Assembly (NCBI GenBank): GCA_016845365.1
Contig: JAERST010000024.1
Coordinates: forward strand, 1-64,000
Origin: Methanobacteriota archaeon
GTDB lineage: Archaea > Thermoplasmatota > Poseidoniia > Poseidoniales > Thalassarchaeaceae
DNA length: 64,000 bases
Direction of reading: 5' to 3'
Part shown: piece by piece, positions 18,519 to 40,400 of the stretch
Position numbering within the stretch: position 1 is the stretch's first letter
How the letters are laid out: each line of letters opens with the position of its first letter
Notes under the pieces: generated by a model
Told to the model about the DNA's origin: nothing
Database searches by the model: none
The model's input: only the letters and a program-made list of their open reading frames with translations
Position numbers and translations under genes: made by a program

Positions 18519-21500
18519 ATGACGTCCGCGTATGGCGCTCGAACGATGGTCGCAATGATGCTCTTGGCAGCCTTCTCGGGGCTTGTCTTAGCCGATGATG
18601 CTGGCAGTGGTGGAGATGCAGGAGACACTACCTCGACAGCGGTCTATCTGCCAGCTAGCAATGCAACTTACTACGGTAATCTCAGCTCGACCGATGGCGG
18701 CGATTACTTCGGAATCAATATGACCTCCGGCACCGGAATCGCCGCCCAGCTAACTTCGCCCTCAGGCGCAGATTACGACCTGATTCTACGCACCTCAACC
18801 GGCGTTGCCGTGGATACTTCGTACAGCACAGGTGTCGATGATGTGACATCGAACGGAACCAATGTTGGGGGTTCGACAGTCTTCGTCGAGGTCGACAGAT
18901 ACTCAGGTGCAGGACAATACACACTGCAGATCTGGATTTTCTCAACTGCAGGCCAGCCCGGTTCCAACCAAGATGATGCTGGTAGCGGAACCGACGCGGG
19001 CGCTGACTCGACCGGCGCGGTCGCACTCAGCTCCGCAAATACCACTTTCATGGGTTGGATTTCAGACAATTGGGACTCGTCCGATTGGTACTCAGTAAGC
19101 GTCCCAGCCGACCATTACATCTACGCTGACATGGTCGATTTCGCGAATGCTTCAAGCTACGGTTCGCACATTCGATTGCTGGATTCCTCGGGGAGTTCAA
19201 TCGCCTATGATTACGGCAACACGTGGTCAACAATTACCTCGAACGGCTCCTCCGTGGGTGGCACAACCGTCTACATCCAAATCGCCTCCTCCTCTGACGA
19301 AGGCTTCTACAATTTCTCGTACGGATTAGGCTCTACCTCAAGTCAGCCGGGCTCCAATCAGGATGATGCCGGGACCGGCGGCGACGCTGGCAATACCGCT
19401 TCAGCCGCGACGAACCTTTCGGTGCCAGTCACCGGCGGAAATTACACCGGCTGGGTCTCAGAAAATTGGGACCGCGAGGACTGGTACCGCATCGCAGTAC
19501 CAGACAATCACACAATCTGGGCTTCCGTATCGTGGGACAACTCGAGCGCAGACCTCGATATCTACATGTACGATTCAACCGGTCTGAACACAGTCGATTA
19601 CTCGGCAACGACCACAAGCAACCCTGAGGAAGTAACGGCCAACGGAACCACGGTTGGGGGAGACGATGTGCTTTTCCGCGTGCGCGCGTATAGTGGTGAC
19701 TCGAATTACACGATGAGCTTCGGAATGGAAAACGTCACAGGAGTTCCGACTTCAGACAACCAAAACGATGCGAATACAGGCGGGGACGCAGGCGATAATA
19801 CCTCATTCCCGACCGACCTTCCTCTCAGCAATGCTTCCTACTGGGGCTACATCTCCAATACCGATGACGATGATGATTACTACCGAATCAATGTCACTTG
19901 CTGGTGTATGTTGGATGCGAGTTTGGCTTGGAATAATTCCGATGATTATGACTTGATTCTGCTCGATTCCTCGGGTGGATTCATCGACACCTCGTATTGG
20001 AACAATCCAGAAGAGGTGTCGAGCGGTTCAACGAATATTACCAATGAAACCGTATACGTGCGCGTGAATGCATGGACTGGTGAGGGGGAGTACAATCTCA
20101 ATATCACGATTACAGATTTGAGCACTCACCCGGTGAATAATCAGAACGATTCTGGCACCGGTGGTGATGCTGGGAATGATGTTGATAGCATGACAAATGT
20201 CACTTTGGTCAACGGTGGGAATAATTTCACTGGTTGGGGTTCAGCCGATGTCGATGTCAACGATTACTATCGCTATTCTGTTCCGGTTGATCATGGAATA
20301 GCCATCGAATTGGACTCCGAACCCACGGTTATTCGGCCGTACCTCGTGCTAGGATGGGCTTCGAATTATTCGACGATTGATTCATCGACGAACCTGAATG
20401 GGAACGAGATGGTCACCTCGAATGGATCGATTGTCAGCGGTGAGGACGTTGTTCTCAGGGTCGTCGCGTGGGATGGCGAGGGTGAATACAATCTGACTGT
20501 CTGGATTTTCACCCTCGATACCGATGGTGACGGATTCTGGGACACAGATGAGGTCAATTGTGGCTCGGATCCAGATGATGCGAGCGATTACCCTGTGGAT
20601 ACCGATGGTGATGGTCGCTGTGATACGATGGATAACGACGACGACAATGATGGCGTCTTCGACAATGATGACGATTTCCCGCTCGATCCGAATGAGCAGA
20701 CGGATACCGATAATGACGGCGTCGGCGATAATAGCGATGATGACGATGATGGCGATGGTTGGTCCGACGCCGACGAGAATACCTGTGGCAGCGACCCTCT
20801 GGACGCGTCTGACAGGCCGCCCGACACAGATAACGACATGATTTGTGATGTCGTCGATGACGATGATGATGGCGATGGTGTCCTCGATGTCGACGATGCC
20901 TTCCCGAAGGATGCTACAGAGACTGTTGACACCGACGGTGACGGCATCGGCGATAATGCCGATATGGATGACGATGGTGACGGACACAGCGATTCAACCG
21001 AAATCACCTGTCTCTCTGACCCGATGGACCGTCTCTCGGTTCCACTCGATACAGATGGAGACGGTCAATGTGACGAGGAAGACTACGATGATGACGGCGA
21101 CGGACGCTCCGACGCCGTCGATGCATTCCCTCTAGATGCCTCGGAGTGGGCCGATTTCGATGGTGACGGCGTCGGCGATAATGCCGATGTCGATGACGAC
21201 GGCGACGGATACCTCGACGACAATGATGCCTTCCCTTACGATGCTGCAGAATGGGAGGATTTCGATGGAGATGGCATCGGCGACAATGCCGACGAAGACG
21301 ACGATGGAGATTCGTGGTCAGACCTCGATGAGGCAAATTGTGGCACGGACCCATACTCGAGCCTGAGCATTCCAGACGATTTCGACCAAGACCACATTTG
21401 TGACCTCGAGGATTCAGACGATGATAACGATGGAATCGAGGATGTCAACGATTGGTTCCCACTCGACCCTTCAGAGTGGGACGATACCGACCGCGACGGC

Positions 21501-22508
21501 ACCGGCGACCACGCTGATACCGACGATGATGATGATGGTTGGCTCGATGTCGACGAGCCAAATTGCGGCTCTGACCCGATGGATGCTAACTCGGTTCCAC
21601 TCGACAATGATGCAGACATGATTTGTGATATCGTCGACATCGACGATGACAATGATGGTGTGCAAGATGTCGACGATGCATTCCCGATGGATGGAAATGA
21701 GTGGATTGACACCGATGGCGATGGCCAAGGAAATAATGCCGACATCGACGATGATGGTGATTCTTGGACCGATAATCAAGAGGAAATGTGTGGCACTGCG
21801 AGCCTAGCGGCCAATTCCGTGCCAACTGACACCGATGGCGACGGAACCTGTGATGCTATCGATCCTGATGACGATGGAGACGGTGTGCCCGACGTTGACG
21901 ATGAGTACCCACTGGACGCTAGCGAGTGGGAGGACCGAGATGGAGACGGCTTGGGTGACAATGCTCACCCGCTTTCCATTCTCGACCACATGAAGCTCAA
22001 TCCTGGATTGACTGCTGTAATCATCATTCTACTGCTTGGGGCAATCGGCGCGAGTGCTGCGGTCGTCCTACTTCGCAAGAAAGATGAGGAAGAGGCTGCT
22101 TTCGCCGACGATGAGTACTCTCAGTACGACGGCGCTGAGGATTGGGAAGATCTGCAACAATTCGATGAGGCCGCACAAGAAGTGAGTGCTCCTGCTCCAG
22201 AAGCACCTGCGGCTCCACCTGCTCCTCCTGCCCCGCCAGGATTTGGCGAGGCTGACGAGAATCTCGATGAGACGACTTCCCAGACCCCTCCACCACCGCC
22301 TGGATTCGAAGCTCCAGCCGATGAGTCACGAACACCTCCACCACCACCCGGATTTGGTGCTCAGGCAGAAGAGTCTCAGACGCCACCGCCTCCACCCGGA
22401 TTTGGTGCTCCAGCAGAGGAATCTGAGGTGCCACCAACACCTCCAGGATTCGACACGGTTGTTGAAGATGAAGATTCAGACATTCCGCCTCCACCGCCCG
22501 GATTCTGA
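18519..22508 (+). CDS. Surface protein with PPC-like repeats, Ca2+-binding type-3 repeats, TM anchor and PPGF-rich tail
   Basis: 1329 aa. A signal peptide (TMVAMMLLAAFSGLVLA, likely cut before DDAGS) is followed by five PPC-like beta-sandwich units of about 130 aa. They start near residues 26, 150, 280, 415 and 542, each opened by a Asp/Gly-rich NQDDAGTGGDAG-type linker. From about 667 to 1160 there are thrombospondin-type-3-like repeats (DTDGDGxGDNxDxDDDGDG...DAFPLD), a stiff Ca2+-binding rod. A transmembrane helix follows (about 1164-1186, VIIILLLGAIGASAAVVLL) and then RKKDEEE. The predicted cytoplasmic tail is acidic and ends with six proline clusters followed by GF (PPPPPGF type), the last at the very C-terminus. 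The rod probably displays the PPC modules away from the membrane. It is the first of three consecutive genes with such arrays; function unknown. Confidence 0.88.
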   Translation: MTSAYGARTMVAMMLLAAFSGLVLADDAGSGGDAGDTTSTAVYLPASNATYYGNLSSTDGGDYFGINMTSGTGIAAQLTSPSGADYDLILRTSTGVAVDTSYSTGVDDVTSNGTNVGGSTVFVEVDRYSGAGQYTLQIWIFSTAGQPGSNQDDAGSGTDAGADSTGAVALSSANTTFMGWISDNWDSSDWYSVSVPADHYIYADMVDFANASSYGSHIRLLDSSGSSIAYDYGNTWSTITSNGSSVGGTTVYIQIASSSDEGFYNFSYGLGSTSSQPGSNQDDAGTGGDAGNTASAATNLSVPVTGGNYTGWVSENWDREDWYRIAVPDNHTIWASVSWDNSSADLDIYMYDSTGLNTVDYSATTTSNPEEVTANGTTVGGDDVLFRVRAYSGDSNYTMSFGMENVTGVPTSDNQNDANTGGDAGDNTSFPTDLPLSNASYWGYISNTDDDDDYYRINVTCWCMLDASLAWNNSDDYDLILLDSSGGFIDTSYWNNPEEVSSGSTNITNETVYVRVNAWTGEGEYNLNITITDLSTHPVNNQNDSGTGGDAGNDVDSMTNVTLVNGGNNFTGWGSADVDVNDYYRYSVPVDHGIAIELDSEPTVIRPYLVLGWASNYSTIDSSTNLNGNEMVTSNGSIVSGEDVVLRVVAWDGEGEYNLTVWIFTLDTDGDGFWDTDEVNCGSDPDDASDYPVDTDGDGRCDTMDNDDDNDGVFDNDDDFPLDPNEQTDTDNDGVGDNSDDDDDGDGWSDADENTCGSDPLDASDRPPDTDNDMICDVVDDDDDGDGVLDVDDAFPKDATETVDTDGDGIGDNADMDDDGDGHSDSTEITCLSDPMDRLSVPLDTDGDGQCDEEDYDDDGDGRSDAVDAFPLDASEWADFDGDGVGDNADVDDDGDGYLDDNDAFPYDAAEWEDFDGDGIGDNADEDDDGDSWSDLDEANCGTDPYSSLSIPDDFDQDHICDLEDSDDDNDGIEDVNDWFPLDPSEWDDTDRDGTGDHADTDDDDDGWLDVDEPNCGSDPMDANSVPLDNDADMICDIVDIDDDNDGVQDVDDAFPMDGNEWIDTDGDGQGNNADIDDDGDSWTDNQEEMCGTASLAANSVPTDTDGDGTCDAIDPDDDGDGVPDVDDEYPLDASEWEDRDGDGLGDNAHPLSILDHMKLNPGLTAVIIILLLGAIGASAAVVLLRKKDEEEAAFADDEYSQYDGAEDWEDLQQFDEAAQEVSAPAPEAPAAPPAPPAPPGFGEADENLDETTSQTPPPPPGFEAPADESRTPPPPPGFGAQAEESQTPPPPPGFGAPAEESEVPPTPPGFDTVVEDEDSDIPPPPPGF

Positions 22509-22773: not shown

Positions 22774-22782
22774 GTGACGCGT

Positions 22783-25700
22783 ATGCGAAGCAACACAGCC
22801 CGAACAATAATGCTTGCATTGATGATGATAACCATGAGTATTATCCCACTCATGGATGGAGCAGAAGAGAAGACCGAATTACGGGATGATCGACTGCGAA
22901 TGGAGGCCGCTCCGTCGCCTTGTCAAGGTGCGGACGCCTGTCGTGGTACGGATGCCGGAGCCGGTTATAGCAATGGTATGGACATCACGGCCGACTTCGA
23001 TTTCATAGATGGACCGGAGTCGGTAGAATACTGGAATGCGATGGAAGCGACTGGATATTCTTCCAGTTCGACAACCAATATTGATACGTTCATAATCGAT
23101 ATGGAGCCTGGATACGGAGTTAGGTACACATTGACCTGGAACACTACAACCAGTTTCTACTCAAATTATGCATACATGGCGGCATACGGGCCAACCTCCA
23201 TGACTTCTTACTCCACGTACTCGGGCAACTCGTGGGGATACTGCTACTACAGCACAGCTGGACAAGTCGGAATCGGTTCCGATGGAACCTGCATTGGTAA
23301 CTACAACAGCGGAGGCGGCACGACTCGTGACCTCGGCGGCCAAGAGGTCCTCCTCTGGGTTTGGTGCTACTATTGTGGATACGCTAGCATCCTTGACTAC
23401 AACATGAACATCACAACTTTCCCTGCGGACAATGGATTCCCTGGTGACTGGGATGATTCGCCTGATGCGAATAATTTGCTAAGCCTTGAGTTCGATGCTT
23501 ACCCGAACGGCGATTATGCTTCGGGAACTTTCGCGATTTCCACCGGTAGCACCGCGGTAGTCAACTACACATGCGACTACTGGTGCCCTTACGAGACCTC
23601 CCTTGAAATCGAGAAGCCTGATGGTACGACCGATTCATGGGGCGTAGGTTCGTTCTCCTCTTATTCGAGTGGAACAGCGGGCACCTACACCGATGCTGGA
23701 TCTTACACCGTCACGATGGAAGATACCTACGGTGACGGTGGAATGTCGATCGACGTAGTCGATTCGACGCCTCCAGCAAATGCAATCTCAATGGTCGGAC
23801 TCACTGGAGATGCGTTCAATTTGGACGTGAGTACGGGTGGTCACGTTAATCAAACGGATACAGCGGATTATTTCGCTGTCTACATTCCAGATGGTTATGC
23901 TGGCAACTTGACTCTTGATTGGGTCAAGAATGCTGACCTTGACCTTGAGGTGTACTCGGATTCTGCATTCACAACAATGGTCGACTATTCATGGTATGAC
24001 CAGCCGGAATACGTAGACCTCGGCACAACCTTCGAGGACGCAACAGCCTACGTGAAGGTCAGTTACTACGCGTATTACAGTACAGACACCCACGCAGGAT
24101 ACTCCTTGCAATTGCAATTGGCACCTGCGGTTCCACCGCCATGTTCGGTTGCTGATGATGGCGGTTCCGGAGATGATGCAGGTGACACCCAATCAGAGGC
24201 CACCAACATAACAAGTATGGGTTCATCTGCAGTCTTCTCAGGTACGATTTGTGACGGATACGATGATGAGGATTGGTATTCCTACACCCTCGCTCCGGAT
24301 GAAGGATTCTGGTACGTCTTGAACTTCAACCAATCTGAGGGTTCGGAAGCGATTAACGCTTACCTATACATGGATGGTTACTGGTCATACCTTGCCCAGA
24401 ATAACTACCCATATACCCTGAACCCGAAGGGAATGTCGACCAATGAGTCGTATTACTTCCGCAATTATCTCAGCCAGGAGACGACGGTTTACATCAAGCT
24501 CCAAGTTCGCGACCTAGTCGAGGACGTGGAGACCGATTACACGATCGACTTCACGACCTACAACCAGTCTGCAGGCTGGGGCGGGCCATGGACGGACGCA
24601 GGCACCCAGAATGATGGTGGAAACAGTACCAGTGGAAGCGATGCTCTACTCATTCCATCGATGAATGGGTCCTATGTCGGATACGGCCATGATTATGAGG
24701 ACAGGTATGATTACTACGAGATTTACATCCCACAGAATTACGCTCTGCACGTTGAAATTTCCTTCCCTGAAGGCCACGACATAGACGCGGGCATCTACTA
24801 CCGCCACGCCACCTACGGCTGGCTGTACACCGCAGACTCGTCGTACTACTCGAACCCAGAGGAGTTGTGGATTGACTACTCCTACGGTGGCGAGAACATG
24901 TTCATACGCGTGTATACGGATATTGGCGGCGGAATCTACTGGATGAACGTCACAATGGTCACTCCAGATAACGAGCCTGGCGCCAACCCGAATGATTGTG
25001 GTGCAGGAATCGATGCTGGTGACACAATCTACGCAAATACTTGGGACGATGGACCAACATTCCACAATAACTCGAACCAAGCTGACATCAACGGTGACGC
25101 AAACGACACTGGTGGAGTTTGCACATCATGGTTCGATTACACATGGGATCAGCGTGATTACTACCACATCAACGTCCCAACTGGAAAGTACATCAACGTC
25201 ACAGTTGACTTCCCGAACTTGAACCCAGCGAATGCGAATACCTACGTCTACACCTACATGTACATGTGCGGTAATTGGAACATGCAGTGTGTCTATCCAG
25301 GAAACCCTGCTTACTTCGTGGACCAAGTCTACGGACAGGCTCAAACTTACCCGAAGACTGCACACTCCGGTCTCTGGCCAGTTGCAGACTACTGGATTAC
25401 CATGGGAGTTTACTCGTATGGAATCACTCAGCAGGACTACGAGATGAACATCACCTACGGTAACCTCACCGACCTACCTGGCGGTAACCAGAACGATGCT
25501 AACAGCGGCGCAGACGCTGGTTCTTCCTTCGGTTCCTCGGTAGATATTGGAGCATACAATAACGTCACTGCGAACAATACCTACGAGTTTGGCGGATGGG
25601 CAGCAGCAGGACTTGATGACCAAGACTGGTACAACTTCCAAGTTCTACCAGACCACGGCTTCGAGATCACACTCTCGCCAGGATATGACTACCCGAGTGT

Positions 25701-27678
25701 TTGGTACCTACTGTACATCTATGACTCGACTCAGAGCCAGATCGGATACAGCTACTACAGCGACCCACAGACGTGGAATTCGTCGAGCTCGAGTTCGTAT
25801 TACGGCGGCGAGACGATTTACTTCATCGTGAGGAATTACTACTACGATACAGAAGGAACAGACTACAACGTGACGATTTCCTTCTTCTCGCTCGACCCAG
25901 ACGGCGACGGCTGGTACACAGCAATGGAGAATCAATGTGGTACCGATCCGAACGATGCCAACAGCTTCCCAAGCGATACGGATGGCGATGGAATCTGTGA
26001 TTCCCTCGACACTGATAGCGACGGAGACGGAGTAATCGACTCTGAGGACGACTTCCCATTCGATGCGAATGAGACGACGGACACAGATGGCGACGGAATC
26101 GGCGACAATGTTGACGATGACCTCGACAATGACGGTTGGAATAACTCAGCTGAGGCTGATTGTATCACTGACCCAATGGACGCTGACTCGTATCCAGCCG
26201 ACTTCGACAATGACACACTCTGTGACCTTGTCGACCTCGACGATGATAACGACGGATGGAGCGACATCGAGGATGCCTTCCCATTCAACGCGAGTGAGTG
26301 GGCAGACAATGATGGCGACAGAATTGGAGACAATGCTGACCCAGACGACGATAACGACGGTTACTTCGATGATGTCGAAATTGAGTGTATGTCCGACCCA
26401 TTCGAGGTCGCAGACATCCCAACTGACCTCGACCTCGATGGAATCTGTGACGCAATCGACGACGACCTAGACGGTGACGGTGTACTGAATGCAGACGATG
26501 CATTCCCAACCAATCCATCTGAGTGGGCAGACTTCGATGGTGACGGAATCGGTGACAACGCTGACACAGACGACGATAACGATCTGTGGCTCGACGACAT
26601 CGATGCGTTCCCATACGACCAGACTGAGTGGATTGACACAGACGGAGACGGCGTAGGAGACAATGCTGACCTCAACGACGATGGCGACGCTTGGACCGAC
26701 GCCGAGGAGTTTGAGTGCGGCAGCGACCCACTGGACGCTGATTCAGTGCCTGACGACTACGACGGCGACATGGTTTGTGACAAGGTAGACACCGACGATG
26801 ACGGAGACGGAACTCCAGATACTCTGGATGCTTTCCCATTCGACGCTACCGAGAACGCTGACAATGACGGCGACGGAATCGGCGACTTCTCCGACACCGA
26901 CGACGATAACGACGGATGGCTCGACGACGAGGAGCCGAACTGTGGTACCGACCCAATGGACCACACCTCGGTACCTGCGGACAACGATATGGACCACGAT
27001 TGTGACATCTCGGACCAGGACGACGACAATGACGGAGTCCTAGACTTGGATGATGCGTTCCCAATGAACCCATTCGAGCAGCGCGATCTTGACGGCGATG
27101 GAATCGGCGACAACGCTGACATCGACGATGATGGCGACGGCTGGCTCGACACAACTGAGGTCATCTGCCGCAATGCAGTCAATGGACAGGGAGACCCGAA
27201 CAACGCTAACGTCATGCCAATCGACAACGAGACTGTCGACCCGGGTGCAGACGGCGTTTACGGTACCGAAGACGACGTAATCGAGGGAGACGGATTGTGT
27301 AATTCGATCGACCCAGATGACGACAACGACGGTGTGCCTGACCCTGTTGACTACACCCTCGACGCGAACGGTGTCTGTATTACTTGTGAGGACTGGGAGG
27401 ACCACTTCCCATGGGACCCAAGCGAACAGTACGACGGAAACAGCGACGGACTTGGTGATAACAAGAACCCACTGGGTATCCTCGACGACATCAAGGCTGA
27501 GCCTCTACCGTTCATCGGAATTGCCATCGTCGTGATCGCAATGATCGCTCTCATCGCCCGCACCGCTGGAGGCGGCCGCGACGACGATGACGAGTTCGAC
27601 ATGTACGACGAGACCGAGCAGTTCCTCGATGACGAGGACTTCGAAGAGCTCGAAGACGAGGAAGAGATCGACGCTTAA
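22783..27678 (+). CDS. Surface protein with beta-sandwich repeats, Ca2+-binding type-3 repeats and acidic cytoplasmic tail
   Basis: About 1631 aa. The signal peptide is NTARTIMLALMMITMSIIPL. An extracellular region rich in Tyr, Asn and Thr (to about residue 1036) is made of PPC-like modules separated by DAG linkers (for example GSGDDAGDTQ, NPNDCGAGIDAGDT, NQNDANSGADAG). Near residues 240-330 is a module ending in TDAGSYTVTMEDTYGDGG, also seen in the giant protein downstream. From about 1037 to 1570 run type-3-like repeats (DTDGDGICDSLDTDSDGDGV, DAFPFDATE, CGTDPMD). A TM helix (about 1576-1595, IGIAIVVIAMIALIA) is followed by GGGRDDDDE and a tail of almost only Asp/Glu. Layout matches the upstream gene except for the tail, so the two are likely paralogues. 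ATG 22783 is preferred; GTG 22774 is in frame. Confidence 0.86.
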   Translation: MRSNTARTIMLALMMITMSIIPLMDGAEEKTELRDDRLRMEAAPSPCQGADACRGTDAGAGYSNGMDITADFDFIDGPESVEYWNAMEATGYSSSSTTNIDTFIIDMEPGYGVRYTLTWNTTTSFYSNYAYMAAYGPTSMTSYSTYSGNSWGYCYYSTAGQVGIGSDGTCIGNYNSGGGTTRDLGGQEVLLWVWCYYCGYASILDYNMNITTFPADNGFPGDWDDSPDANNLLSLEFDAYPNGDYASGTFAISTGSTAVVNYTCDYWCPYETSLEIEKPDGTTDSWGVGSFSSYSSGTAGTYTDAGSYTVTMEDTYGDGGMSIDVVDSTPPANAISMVGLTGDAFNLDVSTGGHVNQTDTADYFAVYIPDGYAGNLTLDWVKNADLDLEVYSDSAFTTMVDYSWYDQPEYVDLGTTFEDATAYVKVSYYAYYSTDTHAGYSLQLQLAPAVPPPCSVADDGGSGDDAGDTQSEATNITSMGSSAVFSGTICDGYDDEDWYSYTLAPDEGFWYVLNFNQSEGSEAINAYLYMDGYWSYLAQNNYPYTLNPKGMSTNESYYFRNYLSQETTVYIKLQVRDLVEDVETDYTIDFTTYNQSAGWGGPWTDAGTQNDGGNSTSGSDALLIPSMNGSYVGYGHDYEDRYDYYEIYIPQNYALHVEISFPEGHDIDAGIYYRHATYGWLYTADSSYYSNPEELWIDYSYGGENMFIRVYTDIGGGIYWMNVTMVTPDNEPGANPNDCGAGIDAGDTIYANTWDDGPTFHNNSNQADINGDANDTGGVCTSWFDYTWDQRDYYHINVPTGKYINVTVDFPNLNPANANTYVYTYMYMCGNWNMQCVYPGNPAYFVDQVYGQAQTYPKTAHSGLWPVADYWITMGVYSYGITQQDYEMNITYGNLTDLPGGNQNDANSGADAGSSFGSSVDIGAYNNVTANNTYEFGGWAAAGLDDQDWYNFQVLPDHGFEITLSPGYDYPSVWYLLYIYDSTQSQIGYSYYSDPQTWNSSSSSSYYGGETIYFIVRNYYYDTEGTDYNVTISFFSLDPDGDGWYTAMENQCGTDPNDANSFPSDTDGDGICDSLDTDSDGDGVIDSEDDFPFDANETTDTDGDGIGDNVDDDLDNDGWNNSAEADCITDPMDADSYPADFDNDTLCDLVDLDDDNDGWSDIEDAFPFNASEWADNDGDRIGDNADPDDDNDGYFDDVEIECMSDPFEVADIPTDLDLDGICDAIDDDLDGDGVLNADDAFPTNPSEWADFDGDGIGDNADTDDDNDLWLDDIDAFPYDQTEWIDTDGDGVGDNADLNDDGDAWTDAEEFECGSDPLDADSVPDDYDGDMVCDKVDTDDDGDGTPDTLDAFPFDATENADNDGDGIGDFSDTDDDNDGWLDDEEPNCGTDPMDHTSVPADNDMDHDCDISDQDDDNDGVLDLDDAFPMNPFEQRDLDGDGIGDNADIDDDGDGWLDTTEVICRNAVNGQGDPNNANVMPIDNETVDPGADGVYGTEDDVIEGDGLCNSIDPDDDNDGVPDPVDYTLDANGVCITCEDWEDHFPWDPSEQYDGNSDGLGDNKNPLGILDDIKAEPLPFIGIAIVVIAMIALIARTAGGGRDDDDEFDMYDETEQFLDDEDFEELEDEEEIDA

Positions 27679-27743: not shown

Positions 27744-28472
27744 CCACTTCATTCCTGACTTCATCCTACTCTGGATGGAGCTCGATTTCTATCTCCATCT
27801 TCTTGATTCCGTTGGATAACGGTTCAGGATTTTTTTTTCGACTGATTCTGGTTCATTTTTCTCTTACGCGCGCGCGGGGTGCACGCAGGAAGAAATGAAT
27901 TGGCAACGGGTAATTGAGGGTGCAGGCTCGGGTTGATTTCCTGGCGAATCGTTGTTGATTCTACACCAATAATTGCCAATTTTGGACTCAATAACCCCCT
28001 ACTTTTGCCGTCAATTCAGCTCGAATCAACTCCTTTGGTTTATAAAAGAACATTGAGACTTTCTGCCAAACCTCGGTCAAAATGCACTGTAATAGTGATT
28101 AGTTCAGATTTGGCCCGATTCAGCTGAAAGAAGCAGAGAGTTCTGTTCGAATCGGGAGTACATCAGGATGTCTCTGGCATGTGTGAATCCAATTCTGATA
28201 ATAATGAACAAAATTGACCCGTTATCGCCCTCAGGGCGCATAGACAAGGCGGCGTCAAAACAAGTGTCAAAAACGATGCACACCTCGTATCCAGTATTGC
28301 GTTTCTCGATGCCATCGAACTTGCTGGAAAGCGACTCTATAATCCACAAAAACGGTGACAGAGCGGCTATTTTAGTTCAGGTTAGTATCGATTATCGGCC
28401 CCGCTGATAACCCCCCACCCTAAAGGGTGGACTCCGCAACCTTCTAAATGCAAGAAAGACGTGGCAACCAAC
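27744..28472. other. 729-nt gene-free spacer before the giant surface protein gene
   Basis: No convincing gene. It holds a nine-T run (about 27830-27838), an alternating CG tract ACGCGCGCGCG (27866-27876) and a strong box A, TTTATAAAAG (28039-28048). It also contains an unrecognised 79-codon open frame (28168-28407), the inverted repeat CCACCC-TAAA-GGGTGG (28415-28430) and a weaker A/T box, TTCTAAATG (28442-28450), 25 nt before ATG 28473. The strong box A has no long frame within reach. A small RNA or a long leader is possible. Confidence 0.5.
28039..28048 (+). promoter_or_regulatory. Strong box A with no obvious gene
   Basis: TTTATAAAAG matches the archaeal TATA element closely. Initiation would fall near 28070. 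The next ATG (28081) opens only a six-codon frame. It may drive a small RNA or an approximately 400-nt leader of the giant gene. Inference from motif and spacing only. Confidence 0.4.
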
Positions 28473-31400
28473 ATGGTTGCAGCCATGCCGCTAACTGCTG
28501 AGACAACGAACAACAGGTTTGACCTGACGACGATCGCCCTGGGATTGGCCGCCATGATGGCGCTGGTCCTGGTTGCAGGATCGCTGAACGAGGCCCCCGT
28601 GGCCGTAAATGAACTGGACGAGGCCAGCTCGCAACGCTTCGCTGTGCCGACAATTTCGATTACAACAATCGCTTCTGATGGGTACATCAATGAGGATGAA
28701 TCCAGTACAAATGGATTCACGGTGACTGGCTGGGCAACGGATGCGGATAACGATTGTTCAGGTGGCGCTTGTACCGTTACGGTTGAACTGACAGATTCTG
28801 CTGGTGATGACCATTCAGAGACTTGTACAGTTACAGCATCGAATACTTGGAGCTGTACTTTTGCCGCCGGCGATCTTACTGCTTCGAGTATTGCAGATGG
28901 GACGGTTACAGTCACGGCAGATGTGAGTAACGATGACGGCGCCGCTACTCAAGCATCGGGTCAGGCGGTGCTAGACACTGTTGATCCAACCGTCACTATT
29001 GATTCTTCTCAAATCGATTCAGGTGACAGCTACAATTCAGACGTAACTCTTAGTTTTACTATGAGTGAGGACACTTCAAACTTTGTAGTGGGTGACGTAA
29101 CTGCTGGCGGAGGCGGTTGTTCACTCAGTTCATTCACTGAAGTCAACTCTCAGAGTTACACGGTTGTTTGTGATCCTAGTTCAGAGGCGGCCATTACAAT
29201 TGATGTAAACGCTGGAGCATTTACTGATGCAGCTGGTAACGGGAATACGGTTGCCACTCAATTTACTTGGACAAATGACGAGACTGCACCTACAATGACA
29301 CTTTCGACTAACGATGTTGGGGACGGCGGGTCTCACAACGCAGCAGTCACGATTACATTCACTGCTGGGCAGGCTACCTCTGATTTTGCAGTTGGAGATA
29401 TTACTACCGGTGGTGGGGGCGACTGTACCCTCTCATCCTTCACGTCGAACTCTGCAACGGAGTATACAGCAGTTTGTACTCCTGATTCAGATGGAACCGT
29501 AACTGTTCAGGTCGCTGCTGGAACGTTTACGGATGCGGCGGGGAACAGCAACACCGTTTCGAACGAATATGATTGGACACATGACTCCACTGCACCGACG
29601 ATTTCAAGCTTCTCTCTTGCTGCATGCGATTGTGCTGTAGGTGAGACAGTGACGGGGACAATTACTGCAGATGCTTCTGGATATTCTAATTCTGCCATAT
29701 CGATAAACGGAGTAACTGTATCCACTTTCCAAGACAATAGTGACAATACATACACTGTAACTTATGTTGTCGTAGAGGGTAATGACGATCAGAGTGCTGG
29801 GTCGACACCTGTGAGTGCAGTTCTCTCAGACGGTCTCAACACCAATTCCGCATTCACGACAGCCTCGTATGGTGGAACCTTGACCATTGATGCTAACTCC
29901 CCTGCAGCTACCACAACAGTATCTGCTCCTTCCGGAACATATGGGGTTGGCGAGAGTATCACAATTACGATTACCGCGAGCGAGACTGGATTGTCATGCT
30001 CGGCATGTACGATGAACGGGGTAACAGTAACCGGTTTCACAGACAACAACGATAATACCTACACTGCAACTTATACAGTCGCGGAAGGTAATACAGACCG
30101 AGCTGCTGGAGCTTCCGACTTCATCAGTTTCGTCCTCTCTGACGCTGCAGGAAATACTAACTCAGCCTTCACAACTCTAACTGAGTCAGGTGGTGCTGTT
30201 GTTATCGATGGAAACTCGCCCGCTACGACGACAACGGTTTCTGCCCCGGCCGGAACATATGGGGTTGGCGAGAGTATCACAATTACGATTACCGCGAGCG
30301 AGACCGGATTGTCATGCTCGGCTTGTACGATGAACGGCGTGACTGTTTCTGGCTTCACAGATAACAATGACAACACCTACACTGCAACTTACACAGTTGC
30401 GGAAGGTAATACGGACCGAGCTGCTGGGGCTTCGGACTTTATCAGTTTCGTCCTCGCTGACGCTGCAGGTAATACTAACTCTGCTTTCACCACTTTAACT
30501 GAGTCAGGCGGTGCTGTTGTTATCGACGGAAATACGCCTGCTGATGCATCTTCGGTTTCTGCTCCAGCGGGAACATATGCTGTGGGCGATACAATAACGG
30601 TAACTATTACGGCAAGTGAAACAGGGTTGTCTTGTACTTCTTGTACAATGAACGGAGCTGCTCTAACTGGATTCACTGATAACAGTGATAACACATACAC
30701 AGCAACTTACACAGTAGTGGAAGGTCATTCAGACCGTGATGCTTCGGCCTCAAACTTCGTCAGTATTGACCTCGAGGACGCCGCTGGGAACTCCAATAAC
30801 GCCGTGACTACGTTAACGGAGTCGGGTGGGTCAGTAATTATCGATGCAAATTCTCCTGCAGCAACGACTACTGTAAGTGTTGCATCAGGAAATTATGGCG
30901 TCGGCTCTGACATTTCAATCACAATCACTGCCAGTGAAACTGGATTGTCTTGTTCTGCATGCACGATGAATAGCGTTACGGTTACTGGCTTTACAGATAA
31001 TGGCGACAACACCTACACTGCAACTTACACAGTTGCGGAAGGTAATACGGACCGAGCTGCTGGGGCTTCGGACTTCATCAGTTTCGTACTTGCTGATTCC
31101 GCTGGAAATACAAATGCTGCATTTACAACGTTAACAGAATCTGGTGGGGCGGTAGTCATCGACGCCAACACCCCAACAATCTCAACTGCTTCTGTGCCCT
31201 CGGGAACCTACAAAATAGGTGATGCAATTACTTTAACAATTACCGCGGGCGAAACTTCTCTCTCCGAGAGCGCAATTTCAGTAAATGGAGTCTCAGTTAC
31301 AGGTTTTACAGACAATAATGATAACACGTACTCAGCCACCTATACAGTTGTTGAAGGTAATACGGATAGATCAGCGGGTCAAACACCAGTTAGTGTCGTT

Positions 31401-34400
31401 TTATCAGATGGTATCAATTCCAATTCAGCGTTTACAACTCTCACAGAATCTGGCGGTGATGTCACAATTGATGCCACGAAACCAACGGTAGAAATCTCCG
31501 TTTCTCAAGTCTCATCTGGTGGGACATATAACGCAGATGTCTCAATCACATTCACAATAAGTGAATCAACGGCTGACTTCGTCTCCGGAGACATTTCCAC
31601 CTCCGGCTGTACAATAGGAGACTTTAGTGGATCAGGCACATCTTACACAGCAACTTGTTCCGGTGGCCTATCAGAGGGTACAGTCACACTAGATGTCGCC
31701 GCTGGCGTGTTGTCTGATTCTGCTGGAAATACTAATTCTGCAGCGACTCAGTATTCGTGGACTCATGATGAAACTGCTCCACTAATTGGAATAACAACAG
31801 TTGCATCAGACGGATATGTCAACAACGCTGAGAAGAACACCAATGGATTCTCCGTCTCTGGTACGGCTAACGGTGCAGACGGACAGACCGTCACAGTAGG
31901 ATATGGTGATGCTTCTACGACTTGCACGGTTTCAGGGACATCATACACTTGTACATTTTCGACATCAGATTTGGCATCAGCTGGCACCAGCTCGGGTGAT
32001 TCAGTTCAATTAACTGCGGATGTTGACGACGCGGCGGGTAATTCAGCAAGTCAGGCTACCTTCTTTGCAACCGAGGACACGGTTGCACCATCTGTAACCG
32101 CATTGTCTCTGGCAGCGGGGACCTTGGGAGTTGGAGATTCATTGACCCTCACAATTACTGCAGATGCGGCAGGGTACACAAAGAACACTATTACAATTAA
32201 CGGAGAGAATACTGGTTCGATAACTGATGCTGGCGGCGGATCTTACACCATTTCGTACACTATTGCTGAAGGAAATACAGATAGAGCAGCTGGCGCCACG
32301 CCTGCAAGCGTCATTCTTTCTGATACGGCAGGTAACACTAACTCAGCTTACACGACCGTATCCTATGCGGGCACGCTCACTATCGATGCTAATACGCCCT
32401 CCATTAGTTCTGCAACAATTTCCTCAGGCACTTATGCCGTCGGCGACGCGGTTAGCATGACTATTGATGCCGGTGAAACAGGCCTCTCCGAAAGTGCCAT
32501 TTCCATAAACGGAGTTGCCGTCTCTGGATTCACAGACAACAACGACAACACATACTCTGTGACTTACACAGTGGGAGAAGGAAACACGGACAGAGCGTCC
32601 GGGGCTTCCGATTTCATTAGCGTCGTTTTAGATGACGGAGTAAACACGAACGTAGCATATACCACTCTCACTGAGTCTGGTGGAGATGTTGTAATCGATG
32701 CTAATTCACCGGCTGCAACCAGCACAGTATCTGTTTCCGCGGACACAGTTGGTGTTGGAGATACAGTAACTTTGACCATCACAGCCAGCGAGACAGGACT
32801 TTCCTGTTCTGCTTGTACGATGAACAGTGGAACTCTAACAGCATTCACAGACAACAACGACAACACGTACACAGCAACATACACTGTTGCAGAAGGTCAA
32901 ACGGACCGTGCATCTGGTGCGTCTGATTTCATCAGTATCGTATTGGCTGACTCTGCAGGAAACACTAACTCTGCATTCACTACTCTTACTGAGTCGGGTG
33001 GAGATTTGGTAATCGACGCGAACACTCCGTCAATTACCTCCGCAACTATCACTTCGGGAACTTACGCAGTAGGTGACGCCATTACCATGACCATTGATGC
33101 TGGCGAGACTGGCTTGACTTCGAGTGCAATTACGATCAATGGTGTTGCAGTAACGGGCTTTACCGATAACAACGACAACACTTACTCAGTAACTTACACA
33201 GTTGTCGAAGGCAACACTGACCGGGCCTCTGGCGCTTCTGACTTCATCAGCGTGGTCTTGGATGACAGCGAGAATACAAACTCCGCCTACACGACACTAA
33301 CAGAGTCTGGTGGAGATGTTGTAATTGATGCGAATTCCCCTGCGACAACAACCAGTGTCTCGGTATCGTCGGGAACCTACGCAGTTGGAGATGCAATATC
33401 GATTACAATTACTGCTAGCGAGACAGGCCTATCTTGTTCCGCTTGTTCTATGAACGGCGTGACTGTTACTGGCTTCACAGATAACAATGACAACACCTAC
33501 ACTGCAACTTACACAGTTGCAGAAGGTAACACAGACCGAGCATCTGGTGCTTCTGACTTCATCAGCTTCGTCCTGGCAGACTCGGCGGGCAACACGAACG
33601 CAGCATTCACTACTCTCACTGAGTCTGGTGGAGATGTTGTAATCGATGCTAATTCACCTACCTTGACAACTGTATCAATTTCTACCGCTGGGACCGGAGA
33701 TGCGAATAACGGAGATGATGTTACTCTCTCGTTTACTTCTAGTGAAACTATTGGAACGCCATCATGCACTATAAATGACGGTGAAGGAAATGCGATGGCA
33801 AATTCAGTAACTGTTTCCAACACGCAAAACAACGACTGGACATGTGTAGTAGACACAGCTGATGATGATGGAAATGGAGCCATTTCGTTCTCCATCACGT
33901 TCTCAGACTCAGCTTCCAACGCGGGTTCCGCGGTTAGTAGCGTCACTGATTCGACCAGCGTAACTATCGATAACACACATCCAACATTGAGCACAATTGC
34001 AATTTCAACTGACGGTAACGCAGGATACGGAAAGAGTGGAGACACACTCACATTGACAATAACTGCAAGCGAATCGGTCACAAACCTCGCTTGTACGATA
34101 GCGAGTGAATCTGCGACAATGTCTGGTTCTGGGACCTCCTGGACTGCAGAGTTAACACTGAGCGGAGATGAAAATGAAGGGTCAGCATCTTTCTCTTGTG
34201 CAAGTCACACTGATTCTGCAGGAAATGAGGGAGTCGCGGATACATCGGCCGATTCAGGCTCTGTAACCATCGACTTCACTGTTGCAGCAGCAACAGAAAG
34301 CGTGGCAGTATCAACTCCAGCTTCAGACACGACACCAGATGTCACGATTAGCGTGACTGAATCTGGAACAGTTGACGTTGGTGGCTCCTGTGGCTCATCC

Positions 34401-37400
34401 ACCTCTACCTCAGTTAGCTCAGGAACAAACACGTTGACACTGACTCAGTCTGATGACACAACTGCATTATCGGATGGCACCTACTCTGATTGTACGGTGA
34501 CCTTCACCGATAGTGCAGGTAATGCGGCAAGTGCTCTCACGCTAACGACGTTCGTCGTGGATACCGGTGCACCTTCAGTTACACTCTCTTACACGGGTTC
34601 TTCACCAGCTACTGGATCTACCTTCGATGTATCGATTTCATTCAGTGAATCAGTAACAGGCTTCGCTGTTGGTGACATTACGGTAAGCGGGGGCTCAGCT
34701 TCGTTATCTGGAAGCGGTTCAAGTTACACAGCAACTATCACCCCAACTGCTGATGGAACTGTGACAATCGATGTTGCGGCTGGTGTCGCATCAGATTCAT
34801 CTAGCAATACTAACACTGCTGCAACTCAACTTTCAGTCGATTCAGATCAGGCCGATGCCCCAGCGTTCACGAGCACTGCGGGAACAAGCGCTACGGAAGA
34901 TAGTGCATATTCCTACACCATCACAGCAACAGATGCAGATGATGGTTCACCTAATTCGAACACAATTACCCTGTCGTGTACGACCTGCCCATCTTGGTTG
35001 ACATTTACCGACAATGGTGGCGGATCTGCAAGTCTGACCGGCACTCCTAGTGACTCGGCAGTCGGTTCGAATTCCGTAGTATTGAAGGCAGAAGATGGTG
35101 ATGGAGAATACACTACCCAATCGTTTACTATTACCGTGACAAATGTCAATGATGTTGGAACTGTGTCAATTACAGGAACCAATGCAGAGGACAGTACTCT
35201 AACTGCATCTGTCTCGGACGACGATGGCCTGACAGGAGTGTCCATCACATACCAGTGGCAGAGTTCATCTGATCTCTCGAGTTGGAGTGACATTTCAGAT
35301 GCTGATGACTCGACGTTTACTTTGACTCAGACACAGGTCGGCGATTACATGCGCGTACGCGTGCAATACACTGACGAAGACAGCACTCAAGAATCGCACA
35401 CTGCAATGTTGAGTACAACTGTCTCGAACGTCAATGACGACAACACCGGCACTCCGACAATCTCGGGAACGACCACAGAGGATGAAACTCTGACTGCAGA
35501 CGCTTCTCCACTATCTGGCAATGACGAGGACGGAATGTCTGGTTCTTCGTTCACCTACCAGTGGCAGCGCTGTACAAGCACGACAACATCGACATGTTCG
35601 GACATCTCGAGCGCAACCTCGTCGACTTACGACCTCGATGACAGCGACGCAGAGCAATACATCCGCGTAGGTGTGTCATACACTGATGATGAAGGAACAT
35701 CTGAGACAGTTTACAGCTCAGTTACTGCACAGATTACCGATGTTAACGATGGACCATCCGCAGGTGATGACCAGACAGGTTCAGTTACAGAGGATGACTC
35801 GACAACAACTGCTACGGGAACAGTCTCTGGTAGCGATGTAGATCCGTCTGACACACTCAGTTACACTGCAGGTAGCACTTCCGGAACATACGGAACATTC
35901 GCTGTAGTAAGTGGAACTGGTGCCTGGACTTACACCATCTCGAACGCTGATGCTGATACGGACGCTCTCGACTCTACTGAGAGCGACACGGACACATTCA
36001 CAGTTACAGTCTCTGACGGAACACTCAGCGACACTATGGATGTCGTAATCACCATCAATGGTGCGAATGATGCTCCAGTAGTCTCGAGTGCAATCTCTGA
36101 TGAGAGCACAGATGAGGACGCATCCTACTCGCTCGATGTGACAGGAGGGTTCTCAGATGTCGATGTCGAAGATCTGACTTACACTATGTCTGGTGCACCA
36201 AGCACTCTGAGCATCTCGAGTGGCACAATCAGTGGAACTCCAACTAATGATGATGTTGGAACTCACTCGATTACTGTAACCGCATCTGACGGCGATGCTT
36301 CGGTCTCGGACACATACGTTCTGACTGTTGCAAACACCAACGATGCTCCAACTGTTGCAAACGCCATCGCAGACGACAGCGTGGCCGAAGATTCATCCTA
36401 CACCTTTGACTTCTCGAATGTGTTCAGTGATGTTGACTCTGGCGACTCGTGTTCATACAGTGTATCTGGTAACCCGAGCACAATCACAATCTCTGGAACA
36501 GATCTGACTGGAACTCCTCTGAATGCAGATGTTGGTACTCACACGATTACCTTGACTTGCACAGATGGAAGTAACGCAGCTGTGTCCGATTCATTCGATC
36601 TTACAGTGATCAACACGAATGATGCTCCAACCATTACCAGCACTGCAATCACTGCAGTCGATGAGGATGCAGCCTATTCATACACAGTGACCACTGCAGA
36701 TGATGACGGTGAGACAATCACACTGACCGGAACGACTGTTCCATCGTGGTTGACATTCACCGCGTCGACTGGTGTCTTGGCTGGAACTCCAACCAACGAC
36801 TATGTTGGAAGCCACAGTGTGGTCATCACAGCGTCGGACGGAACTGCCTCGGTGACAGACACGTTTACCATCACAGTCTCGAACACCAACGATGCTCCTG
36901 AAGCAGGTGCTGACCAGACTGGCAGTCTAACCGAAGATGATTCGACCACCACTGCAACTGGAACTGTGTCTGGAAGCGATGTTGACTCTGGCGACACTCT
37001 ATCGTACGCAACGAGTTCAACTGGCGGAACCTACGGAAGCTTCGCAATCGTAGACACAACCGGTGCCTGGACATACACGCTGGACAATAGCGATGCAGAC
37101 ACAACGGCTCTCGATGCTGATGATTCGGTAACGGACACTTACACCATCACAGTAACAGACGACGGAACTGGTACTCTAACCGACACCATGACAGTCACGA
37201 TCACCATCACTGGTGCAGATGACGATGTCACAGCTGGCGCAGACCAGACTGGCTCGGTAACTGAGGATGCTTCGACAACCACAGCAACTGGTACTATGGA
37301 TGCAAGCGACGCAGATGCAGACGCTTCACTATCCTACAGTGGCGATGCAACCGGAGTTTACGGTTCGATTGCAATTGACAGCACTGGTGCTTGGACATAC

Positions 37401-40400
37401 ACATTGGACAACGCCGATGCGGACACAACTGCACTGGATGCAGGCGACTCAGTTGACGACGTGTTCACTCTAACCGTGAGTGACTCTTCCTCTGGCGAAT
37501 CTGACACAATGACCGTCACCATCACCGTAACCGGTGCTGACGACGATGTGAGTGCTGGAGCTGACCAGACTGGAGCGGTAACTGAGGACGCGAGCACATC
37601 AACCGCAACCGGCACAATTGCTGGAAGCGATGCAGATGATGCTTCCTCGCTCTCTTACAGTGGAGACGCAACCGGAACCTATGGTTCGATTGCCGTTGAC
37701 TCAAGCACTGGTGCTTGGACATACACATTGGACAATACCGATGCTGACACAACTGCACTAGATGCAGGTGATGAGGTCACGGACGCATTCACCATGACTG
37801 TCTCCGACAGCGCTTCGAGCGAAAGTGACACTATGACTGTCACAATCACCGTCACGGGTGCTAACGACGCGCCTGACGCAGGAAGCGACGCAACTGGTGC
37901 AGTCACTGAGGATGCAACCACAACCACGGCTACTGGCACTGTCTCCCCGACGGATGACGATGCTTCGGCAGCATTCACCTACAGCGGTGACGCAACTGGA
38001 ACATACGGTGCGATCGCAGTCGACAGCGCTGGTGCTTGGACATACACCTTGGACAATAGCGATGCAGACACTACTGCACTCGACGCAGGTGACTCGGTAA
38101 GTGACGCGTTCACTCTGACTGTATCAGACGGAACTGCCTCCGACACATTGACAGTCACTATCACCGTAACTGGTGCTGATGACGATGTCAGTGCTGGTGC
38201 TGACCAGACAGGCGCTGTGACAGAAGACGCAACGACAACTACTGCAACGGGAACGGTCGCAGGAAGCGATGCTGATGCAGATTCGGTGCTCTCGTACAGT
38301 GGAGATGCCACAGGCACATACGGTTCAATTGCTCTAAGTGGCGCAGATTGGACCTACACCCTGGACAATAGCGATGCAGACACAACTGCCCTAGATGCAG
38401 GTGACTCAGTAACTGATGCCTTCACCATCACAGTCAGTGATTCTGCCTCTGGTGAGTCGGACACAATGACTGTGACAATCACGATCTCTGGTGCTGATGA
38501 CGATGTCAGTGCTGGTGCTGACCAGACTGGAGCTGTAACTGAGGACGCAAGCACCTCGACAGCAACAGGAACAATCGCTGGAACTGATGCCGACGGTGCT
38601 TCGGCACTCTCGTACAGCGGAGATGCAACTGGAACCTACGGTTCGATTGCAGTCGTATCGACCACAGGTGTTTGGACCTACACATTGGATAACACCGATT
38701 CTGACACTACCGCACTAGACGCAGGTGACTCAGTCACAGATGTGTTCACAATGACAGTATCCGACAGTGCTTCGAGCGAATCTGACACCATGACGGTGAC
38801 AATCACAGTCACTGGTGCAAACGACGCTCCGAGTGCCGGAGATGATGCAACAGGCGCGGTAACTGAGGATGCTACGGCAACCACGGCAACCGGCTCGATC
38901 ACAGCAACTGACGACGATGCTTCGGCAGCATTCACCTACAGCGGTGACGCAACCGGAACATACGGATCGATTGCAGTCGACAGCGCTGGTGCATGGACAT
39001 ACACCTTGGACAACAGCGATGCTGACACCGATGCCCTCGCACACGATGGCTCGGGCACTGACACGTTCACTCTGACAGTATCCGACGGAACTGCATCAGA
39101 CACGATGACAGTAACAGTCACGGTCTCTGGTGCAAACGACGCCCCGACCGTTGCAACTGCTATCTCAGATGCAAGCACGGATGAGGATGCAGCATACAGC
39201 CTCGACATCTCGAGCAACTTTGCTGATGTCGACACTGGCGATGCTCTATCATTCAGCGCAACCGGCCTACCTACCACACTCTCGATATCTTCGGATGGTG
39301 TGATCTCAGGAACTCCGGTCAACGCAGATGTTGGAACACACACGATTGTAGTCACTGCAACTGATGATGCGACAACCGCTGGCTCAGTCACGGACACCTA
39401 CGTCTTGACTGTCGTCAACACTGATGACGCAACCACGGGTACAGTCACAATTAGTGGAGACGCATACGATGATGAGACGCTAACAGCCGTCACTAGTGAT
39501 TTGGCTGACGATGACGGATTGGGCACATTCACCTACCAGTGGGCTGACGCTGACGGAGATATCTCGGGAGCAAACAGCAGCACGTACACCATCCCATCCT
39601 GTGAGAGCACAGCGGTTTGCAGTTCACTTGGCAAGACCTACACTGTAACCGTCACTCACACTGATGCATACAGCGTCGTGCAGACAATGGATGCTTCCGC
39701 CGCTACCTCGGCAGTCACCCTCAACCCAGATGGTGACCTCGATGGTGATGGAATCATCAATAGCGCTGACACGGATGACGACGGTGACGGCTGGATCGAC
39801 AGCTCGGATGCCTTCCCAAGCGACTCAGACGAGTGGCTCGACACCGACTCCGATGGAATCGGTAACAACGAGGACACAGATGATGACGGCGACGGTGTCG
39901 CTGACGCAGATGATGACTTCCCAACCGATGCAAGTGAGCAGTGGGATGCTGACGGCGACGGCTGGGGTCACAATGCTGACGCAGACGATGACGGCGACGG
40001 AATCGAGGACTCAGTTGACGACGACGATGACGGCGATGGAGACCCAGATGCTACCGACCAATTCCCGAACAACTACAACGAGTGGGACGACACCGACTCG
40101 GATGGAATCGGTAACAACGCTGACACAGATGACGACGGTGATGGAGTTGAGGATGCAGACGACGCATTCCCACTCGACTCAACCGAGACTCTCGACACAG
40201 ACGGCGACGGAACCGGTAACAATGCTGACACTGATGACGACGGCGACGGATTCTCTGACGATGACGAGACCACCAACTGTGGTGAGGCTAACGACCCGCT
40301 AGACTCGGCTGACACACCAACCGACACCGACGGCGACATGTCTTGTGACACACTCGACGACGACGATGACGGCGACGGTGTGGTCGACGCAAGCGATGCA

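Follow-up and report, generated by a model that had tools for sequence, protein, structure and literature searches.

A PPxPPG-hydrophobic motif repeated on the predicted cytoplasmic tail of a Thalassarchaeaceae surface protein recurs in unrelated proteins of the Poseidoniales

The window, a stretch of 64,000 nucleotides at the start of contig JAERST010000024.1, belongs to a genome of Thalassarchaeaceae (Marine Group IIb, order Poseidoniales) that is 84% complete. Its forward strand encodes a surface protein laid out as a signal peptide, a PPC-like/TSP3 ectodomain, a single transmembrane (TM) helix, the residues RKK, and a tail with proline motifs.

18519..22508, + strand: open reading frame (ORF) of 1,329 amino acids, type I surface protein (ORF reading and domain profiles)
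18519..18593, + strand: signal peptide region, residues 1 to 25 (hydropathy 1.83 at residue 7)
19476..19637, + strand: PPC-like domain match PF04151, residues 320 to 373 (profile match of 25.0 bits, slightly under the cut-off of 25.9 bits)
20586..21965, + strand: TSP3-type Asp-rich repeats, PF18884, approximately residues 690 to 1149 (boundaries by eye)
22008..22073, + strand: TM helix, approximately residues 1164 to 1185 (hydropathy)
22074..22505, + strand: predicted cytoplasmic tail, residues 1186 to 1329, beginning RKKDEEE (hydropathy and sequence)
22224..22244, + strand: motif 1, PPAPPGF, residue 1236 (in-frame reading, as for all six)
22287..22307, + strand: motif 2, PPPPPGF, residue 1257
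22335..22355, + strand: motif 3, PPPPPGF, residue 1273
22383..22403, + strand: motif 4, PPPPPGF, residue 1289
22431..22451, + strand: motif 5, PPTPPGF, residue 1305
22485..22505, + strand: motif 6, PPPPPGF, residue 1323, with the stop codon directly after

The hydrophobic core of the signal peptide begins at residue 7, and its exact cleavage site is putative. The most hydrophobic window of the ORF spans residues 1167 to 1185, and RKKDEEE follows directly at residue 1186. Sequence-based prediction thus finds every feature of type I topology: a signal peptide, a single TM helix after it, an RKK positive-inside stop-transfer signal, and a C-terminal tail. The ectodomain carries 28 N-glycosylation sequons and the tail none. 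The cytoplasmic placement of the tail in the preliminary description agrees with this prediction, and it is also favored because the same motif occurs in the cytosolic protein FtsY and in proteins that lack a signal peptide or TM helix. The range originally given, 22186 to 22508, spans the proline part, whereas the full cytoplasmic tail begins at about 22074. Two other surface proteins are encoded on the same strand: an adjoining TSP3-type paralogue of 1,634 amino acids (22774 to 27678), whose wholly acidic tail (GGGRDDDDEFDMYDETEQF...) is without the proline motif, and a nearby giant protein (28461 to 46025), whose ORF of 5,854 amino acids contains TSP3 together with Big_12, He_PIG, and cadherin-like repeats.

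The six proline motifs first described in this tail are all present between nucleotides 22224 and 22505, all read PP-x-PP-G-F, and the last of them forms the C terminus. The starts of adjacent motifs lie about 48 bases or more apart. The tail comprises 144 residues, including 35 Pro, 21 Glu, and 14 Asp, and six of its eight Phe residues are inside the motif. When the tail was shuffled 200,000 times, at most one PPxPPGF arose, compared with the six observed; shuffles that moved proline runs as blocks yielded no more than three PPGF, again compared with six. Synonymous codons differ among the six copies, which therefore do not reflect a fresh DNA duplication. An acidic residue (E or D) follows F in 23 of 33 tail motifs.

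A PGF near the C terminus of a TSP3 surface protein resembles the archaeosortase (PGF-CTERM) sorting signal, and such ends do exist on TSP3 surface paralogues within the genus (e.g., PGFGAILGTLAILSAMLVARRRIE). We rejected this explanation for the window protein because the order of its elements is wrong: a PGF-CTERM signal runs from an external PGF through a TM helix to a terminal basic cluster, whereas here the TM helix is followed by RKK and then by six motif copies, on the cytoplasmic side and with no TM helix beyond them. A search of NCBIfam also returned no PGF-CTERM (TIGR04126) match for the window protein (P0001), and FtsY, which bears the motif as well, is cytosolic. We regard a sorting function of the six motifs as wholly improbable. 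PGF-CTERM-like ends are found in TSP3 paralogues L128, L130, L131, and L133 (for L130, TIGR04126 scores 24.2 bits, with a cut-off of 24.5); the lineage therefore probably uses two anchoring modes.

We searched the 1.73-Mb source genome by pattern, with the reversed pattern as a control, and sampled stretches around the matches. PPPGF has five matches, four in the window tail and one in FtsY, and the reversed control has none. The PPxPPG-hydrophobic pattern (PPxPPG+[NT]) has 15 coding sites with a control of 0, and all 15 are in frame and spread over four unrelated proteins.

Tail of the window surface protein: 6 sites
N-terminal array of a DUF11/zinc-ribbon protein, divided between two contig ends, C2 and C18: 5+1 sites
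FtsY linker, APPPPPPPGFEQFKEE: 1 site
N terminus of a 269-amino-acid protein without a Pfam match, MSDGEDKSLDDLPLPPPPPGL...PPPPPGI: 2 sites

The proposal that the motif be sought in other membrane proteins of the lineage was thus borne out, since it is present in membrane and soluble proteins alike.

The source-genome FtsY is 80 to 90% identical to records of "Ca. Thalassarchaeaceae," Thalassarchaeum sp. (MGIIb-O1), and uncultured Poseidoniales, which places the window in Marine Group IIb. Every FtsY of the source genus and its sister group (L155 to L170 and L001) has PPPPPPGF, whereas none of the other Poseidoniales FtsY N termini recovered does, a set in which a few loci are without a complete N terminus. 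In full-length sequences, all residues of this motif are invariant while each position uses two to four synonymous codons; the motif is under purifying selection. In an AlphaFold2 model of FtsY (31-sequence alignment; mean pLDDT, 78), residues 52 to 85, which include the motif, have a pLDDT below 50, and the motif has the look of a linear motif that selection keeps in a flexible linker. Two GTDB contigs titled Dehalococcoidia bacterium UBA2588 (L184) and uncultured Rhodobiaceae bacterium (L229) encode Poseidoniales FtsY, and these titles look mislabelled.

The DUF11/zinc-ribbon protein, present in 47 of 59 relatives, combines DUF11 (PF01345) with a CxxC...CxxC ribbon at its end and has no signal peptide or TM helix by inspection. 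Most Thalassarchaeaceae have PPPPPGF/L/M in its N-terminal array; in genera g2 and g4 the array reads PPPPPPGMDA, and in Poseidoniaceae PPAPPGMPPMPP (PPAPPGM). Copy number is very variable, and the arrays include PPPAMD, PPAPPDM, and PPADPLM; they look like easily expanding proline-rich repeats, so slippage could explain part of the copy number.

We extended the searches to other genomes of the class, all of them draft metagenome-assembled genomes or single cells, with the Thalassarchaeaceae and Poseidoniaceae labels of the genome groups inferred. In Thalassarchaeaceae, PPPPGF is enriched, with 110 matches (in 49 of 80 genomes) against a control of 5. The coding matches belong to FtsY, the DUF11/zinc-ribbon protein, various types of surface tail, and a small number of other membrane proteins; some matches are in short noncoding frames. 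There was no enrichment in Poseidoniaceae (13 matches in 94 genomes; control, 8). A third family of the class (21 genomes) yielded two matches against a control of 0, and this pair sits in short Arg-rich frames that are not gene-like. PPPGF matches in four Poseidoniaceae loci (L016, L018, L107, and L110) were discarded as tail motifs, as they lie inside an ORF (PPPGFDAVVADVPCTG) that we take from its sequence to be an RsmB/NSUN-like methyltransferase. The counts in the source genome and in the 80 Thalassarchaeaceae genomes show one linear motif common to nonhomologous proteins beyond chance.

Poseidoniaceae have PPAPPGM arrays, and the cytoplasmic tails of their surface proteins L352 and L388 end in PPPPPGMK or PPPPPGMG; the order-wide motif is therefore better written PPxPPG-Φ, where Φ is F, L, M, I, or occasionally Y, and the F form is commonest in Thalassarchaeaceae. 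The residue after PPxPPG is hydrophobic (F/L/M/I/Y) in 199 of 202 motifs: 89/89 in the DUF11 protein of most Thalassarchaeaceae, 21/21 in genera g2 and g4, 58/61 in Poseidoniaceae, and 31/31 in surface tails. Several proteins carry variants in which PPG is broken and G-F is kept (PPVGF, PPLGF, PPSGF, and PPPPPAGF). The hydrophobic position does not change jointly across protein families, as genus g4 has F on its surface tails and M in its DUF11 array. We accordingly rejected a concerted M-to-F change as proof of a coevolving pocket, because this genus mixes F tails with M arrays.

Absence of the motif from all close homologues, which the preliminary description took as counting against its reading, is not what we found. 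The 78% identical orthologue (L116; L064) has five motifs, including a C-terminal PPPPPGF, and the 66% identical one (L117; L050) has two; with these orthologues and the other lineage proteins that bear the motif, the earlier reading stands on this point. A 50% identical orthologue in genome G021 (L119) has no motif, and its tail ends in PGWLWDPSEEKWVPEE, so the motif is dispensable in some orthologues, as it is in FtsY beyond the source genus and its sister group. The motif also occurs on the tails of very different surface proteins (L064, L050, L074, L085, L088, L091, L235, L239, L249, L256, L257, L261, and L265).

The tail linkers diverge fast between orthologues. This divergence and the variable DUF11 arrays, with their imperfect units, are what compositional drift would produce, in which acidic Pro-rich spacers grow by slippage and have no specific binding function. 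Such drift does not account for the invariance of the FtsY motif at the protein level under free synonymous change, the different codons of the six window copies, the arrival of unrelated proteins at the same heptad, or a reversed-pattern control near zero. We therefore consider drift unlikely as the explanation of the motif.

Translational pausing is a second alternative, and to us a slightly less likely one than drift. Strong EF-P-dependent pausing is known at PPP and PPG (PMC4140641), and in Escherichia coli polyproline motifs are overrepresented after TM helices and close to start sites (PMC5811046). The archaeal motifs, relieved by aIF5A, could stall and slow the ribosome after a TM helix or N-terminally and so aid insertion or folding. 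Their PPP/PPG content and their place match such pause motifs, as the window motifs come after the TM helix and the arrays of the DUF11 protein lie at its N terminus. Pausing, however, needs only PPX and gives no account of the hydrophobic residue conserved after G or of the variants that lose PPG and keep G-F. Furthermore, the final window motif lies at the extreme C terminus, one TM helix needs no six copies, and the FtsY motif is situated midway in a soluble protein. The aIF5A dependence suggested at the outset is hence plausible from PPP/PPG content but leaves the conserved hydrophobic residue unexplained.

Several surface tails end in Trp-rich modules. A conserved Trp-rich module (alignment A1) forms the C-terminal end of tails in genera g9 and g11 and in part of g8, with PPPPPGF upstream of it. 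This module, of about 38 amino acids on cytoplasmic tails (SWEDLPDGGDYVxTEPMQYxGEECGTWVRQxDDSW), is seen in L275 to L293 (mostly Thalassarchaeaceae) and L294 to L304 (Poseidoniaceae), approximately once per genome where it is found. Poseidoniaceae proteins of similar layout have a diverged A1 module and KGPPPR-type segments instead of PPPPPGF: the L294 to L304 tails carry basic proline segments (LKGPPPRSK and KKRGPPPAK), compared with the acidic PPPPPGF segments of Thalassarchaeaceae. Sequence comparison of the module with Pfam and PDB returned no relatives, and we rejected it as a WW or GYF relative. A second Trp module, [YH]PGWxWDPxxxxWVPDP, occupies the extreme C terminus of membrane proteins (L145 to L153, including L148 of the source genome at C22:11808). 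A third, GLPxGWTxEQWxxYGxEWL, often comes straight after PPxPPGM (L358, L382, L391, and L011), and a fourth tail module reads YTDEELxxAGWTxxQIxxxR (L125 to L127 and L142 to L144). One 425-amino-acid membrane protein with a CGGSCHGDP motif (L045/L153; G016:C3) has a tail with PPPPPPPGF and PGWLWDPVEEEWVEDP.

Trp clusters are typical of polyproline-binding folds, and the Trp-rich tail modules (SWEDLPDGGDY...GTWxxxxDxSW, PGWxWDPxxxxWVPDP, and GLPAGWTMEQWxxYG) might themselves read the motif, with tails binding one another. The spacing would suit this idea: the SWEDLP module lies about 15 to 35 residues past PPPPPGF in most sampled tails, and the PGWxWDP module comes after PPPPPPPGF in L045. Nevertheless, the SWEDLP module adjoins KGPPPR-type rather than PPPPPGF segments in Poseidoniaceae, is also found on tails without the motif (L120), matches no known structure by sequence, and was not detected in the source genome, which has multiplied the motif. 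We judge this arrangement to be very unlikely.

The preliminary description had likened the tail to eukaryotic ligands of GYF domains. PPGF is the ligand of the GYF domain of plant PSIG1, and a G-to-A change abolishes the binding (PMC5657617); PPPPGHR in the CD2 tail is reported to bind the GYF domain of CD2BP2 (PMC5127646). The archaeal motifs share with these ligands a PPG-based core carried on a surface receptor's cytoplasmic tail or in a disordered region, and PPG followed by a hydrophobic residue, as in GYF ligands, is found in nearly all of the 202 motifs, with FtsY providing a low-pLDDT segment. They differ in tolerating PPVGF, PPLGF, and PPPAGF and in having strongly acidic flanks after F. 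Moreover, the GYF domain itself did not turn up in the lineage: GYF_2 (PF14237) gave nothing above the cut-off in 35 genomes, and its sole subthreshold match, in G020, was discarded because it sits in an ORF that by eye is PEP-synthase-like. The PF02213 (GYF) profile had no match, and the control genomes likewise had none. Another parallel is offered by the disordered tails of SmB and SmN, in which PPPPGMRG and PPPPGIRG are read by OCRE, WW, and GYF domains; their PPPPG-M/I is close to the PPAPPGM arrays of Poseidoniaceae. Unlike these, the archaeal proteins have no Sm tail and no Arg after M, and their context is that of membrane proteins and a cytosolic scaffold.

Together, these observations lead us to favor, with reasonable though limited confidence, the view that selection acts in Poseidoniales on PPxPPG-Φ as a cytosolic short linear motif that is read by a common putative domain. 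We infer the reader domain, its binding mode, and a role as a membrane hub along the following lines. The polyproline stretch would form a PPII helix, and the G-Φ step would turn the chain and anchor it in the hydrophobic pocket of a shared cytosolic reader. The surface protein, displaying six copies on its cytoplasmic tail, could then recruit multiple reader molecules or engage a multivalent complex. Because the motif is shared with FtsY and the DUF11/zinc-ribbon protein, a gathering role at the membrane is likely; surface proteins, the signal recognition particle (SRP) receptor, and the cytosolic scaffold would be brought together at the inner membrane face, where the recurrence in FtsY and surface tails would place at least part of the function. 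More tentatively, and as a possibility that we consider rather unlikely, Poseidoniales may have their own proline-recognition network, in which a novel non-GYF reader links surface receptors, the SRP receptor, and the zinc-ribbon scaffold in a manner like that of GYF or WW systems but independently evolved.

Proline-motif adaptor networks have been described mainly in eukaryotes. If our reading is true, the PPG-hydrophobic motif of these abundant marine archaea would be their prokaryotic counterpart. The vague question of whether multivalent proline motifs act in archaeal signalling or membrane organization becomes testable with defined peptides such as PPPPPGFEAPADES, PPPPPGA, PPPPPAF, and scrambled forms. 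The motif would also offer an initial route to the function of the Asp-rich TSP3 surface proteins of Marine Group II, as well as of the order-wide DUF11/zinc-ribbon protein.
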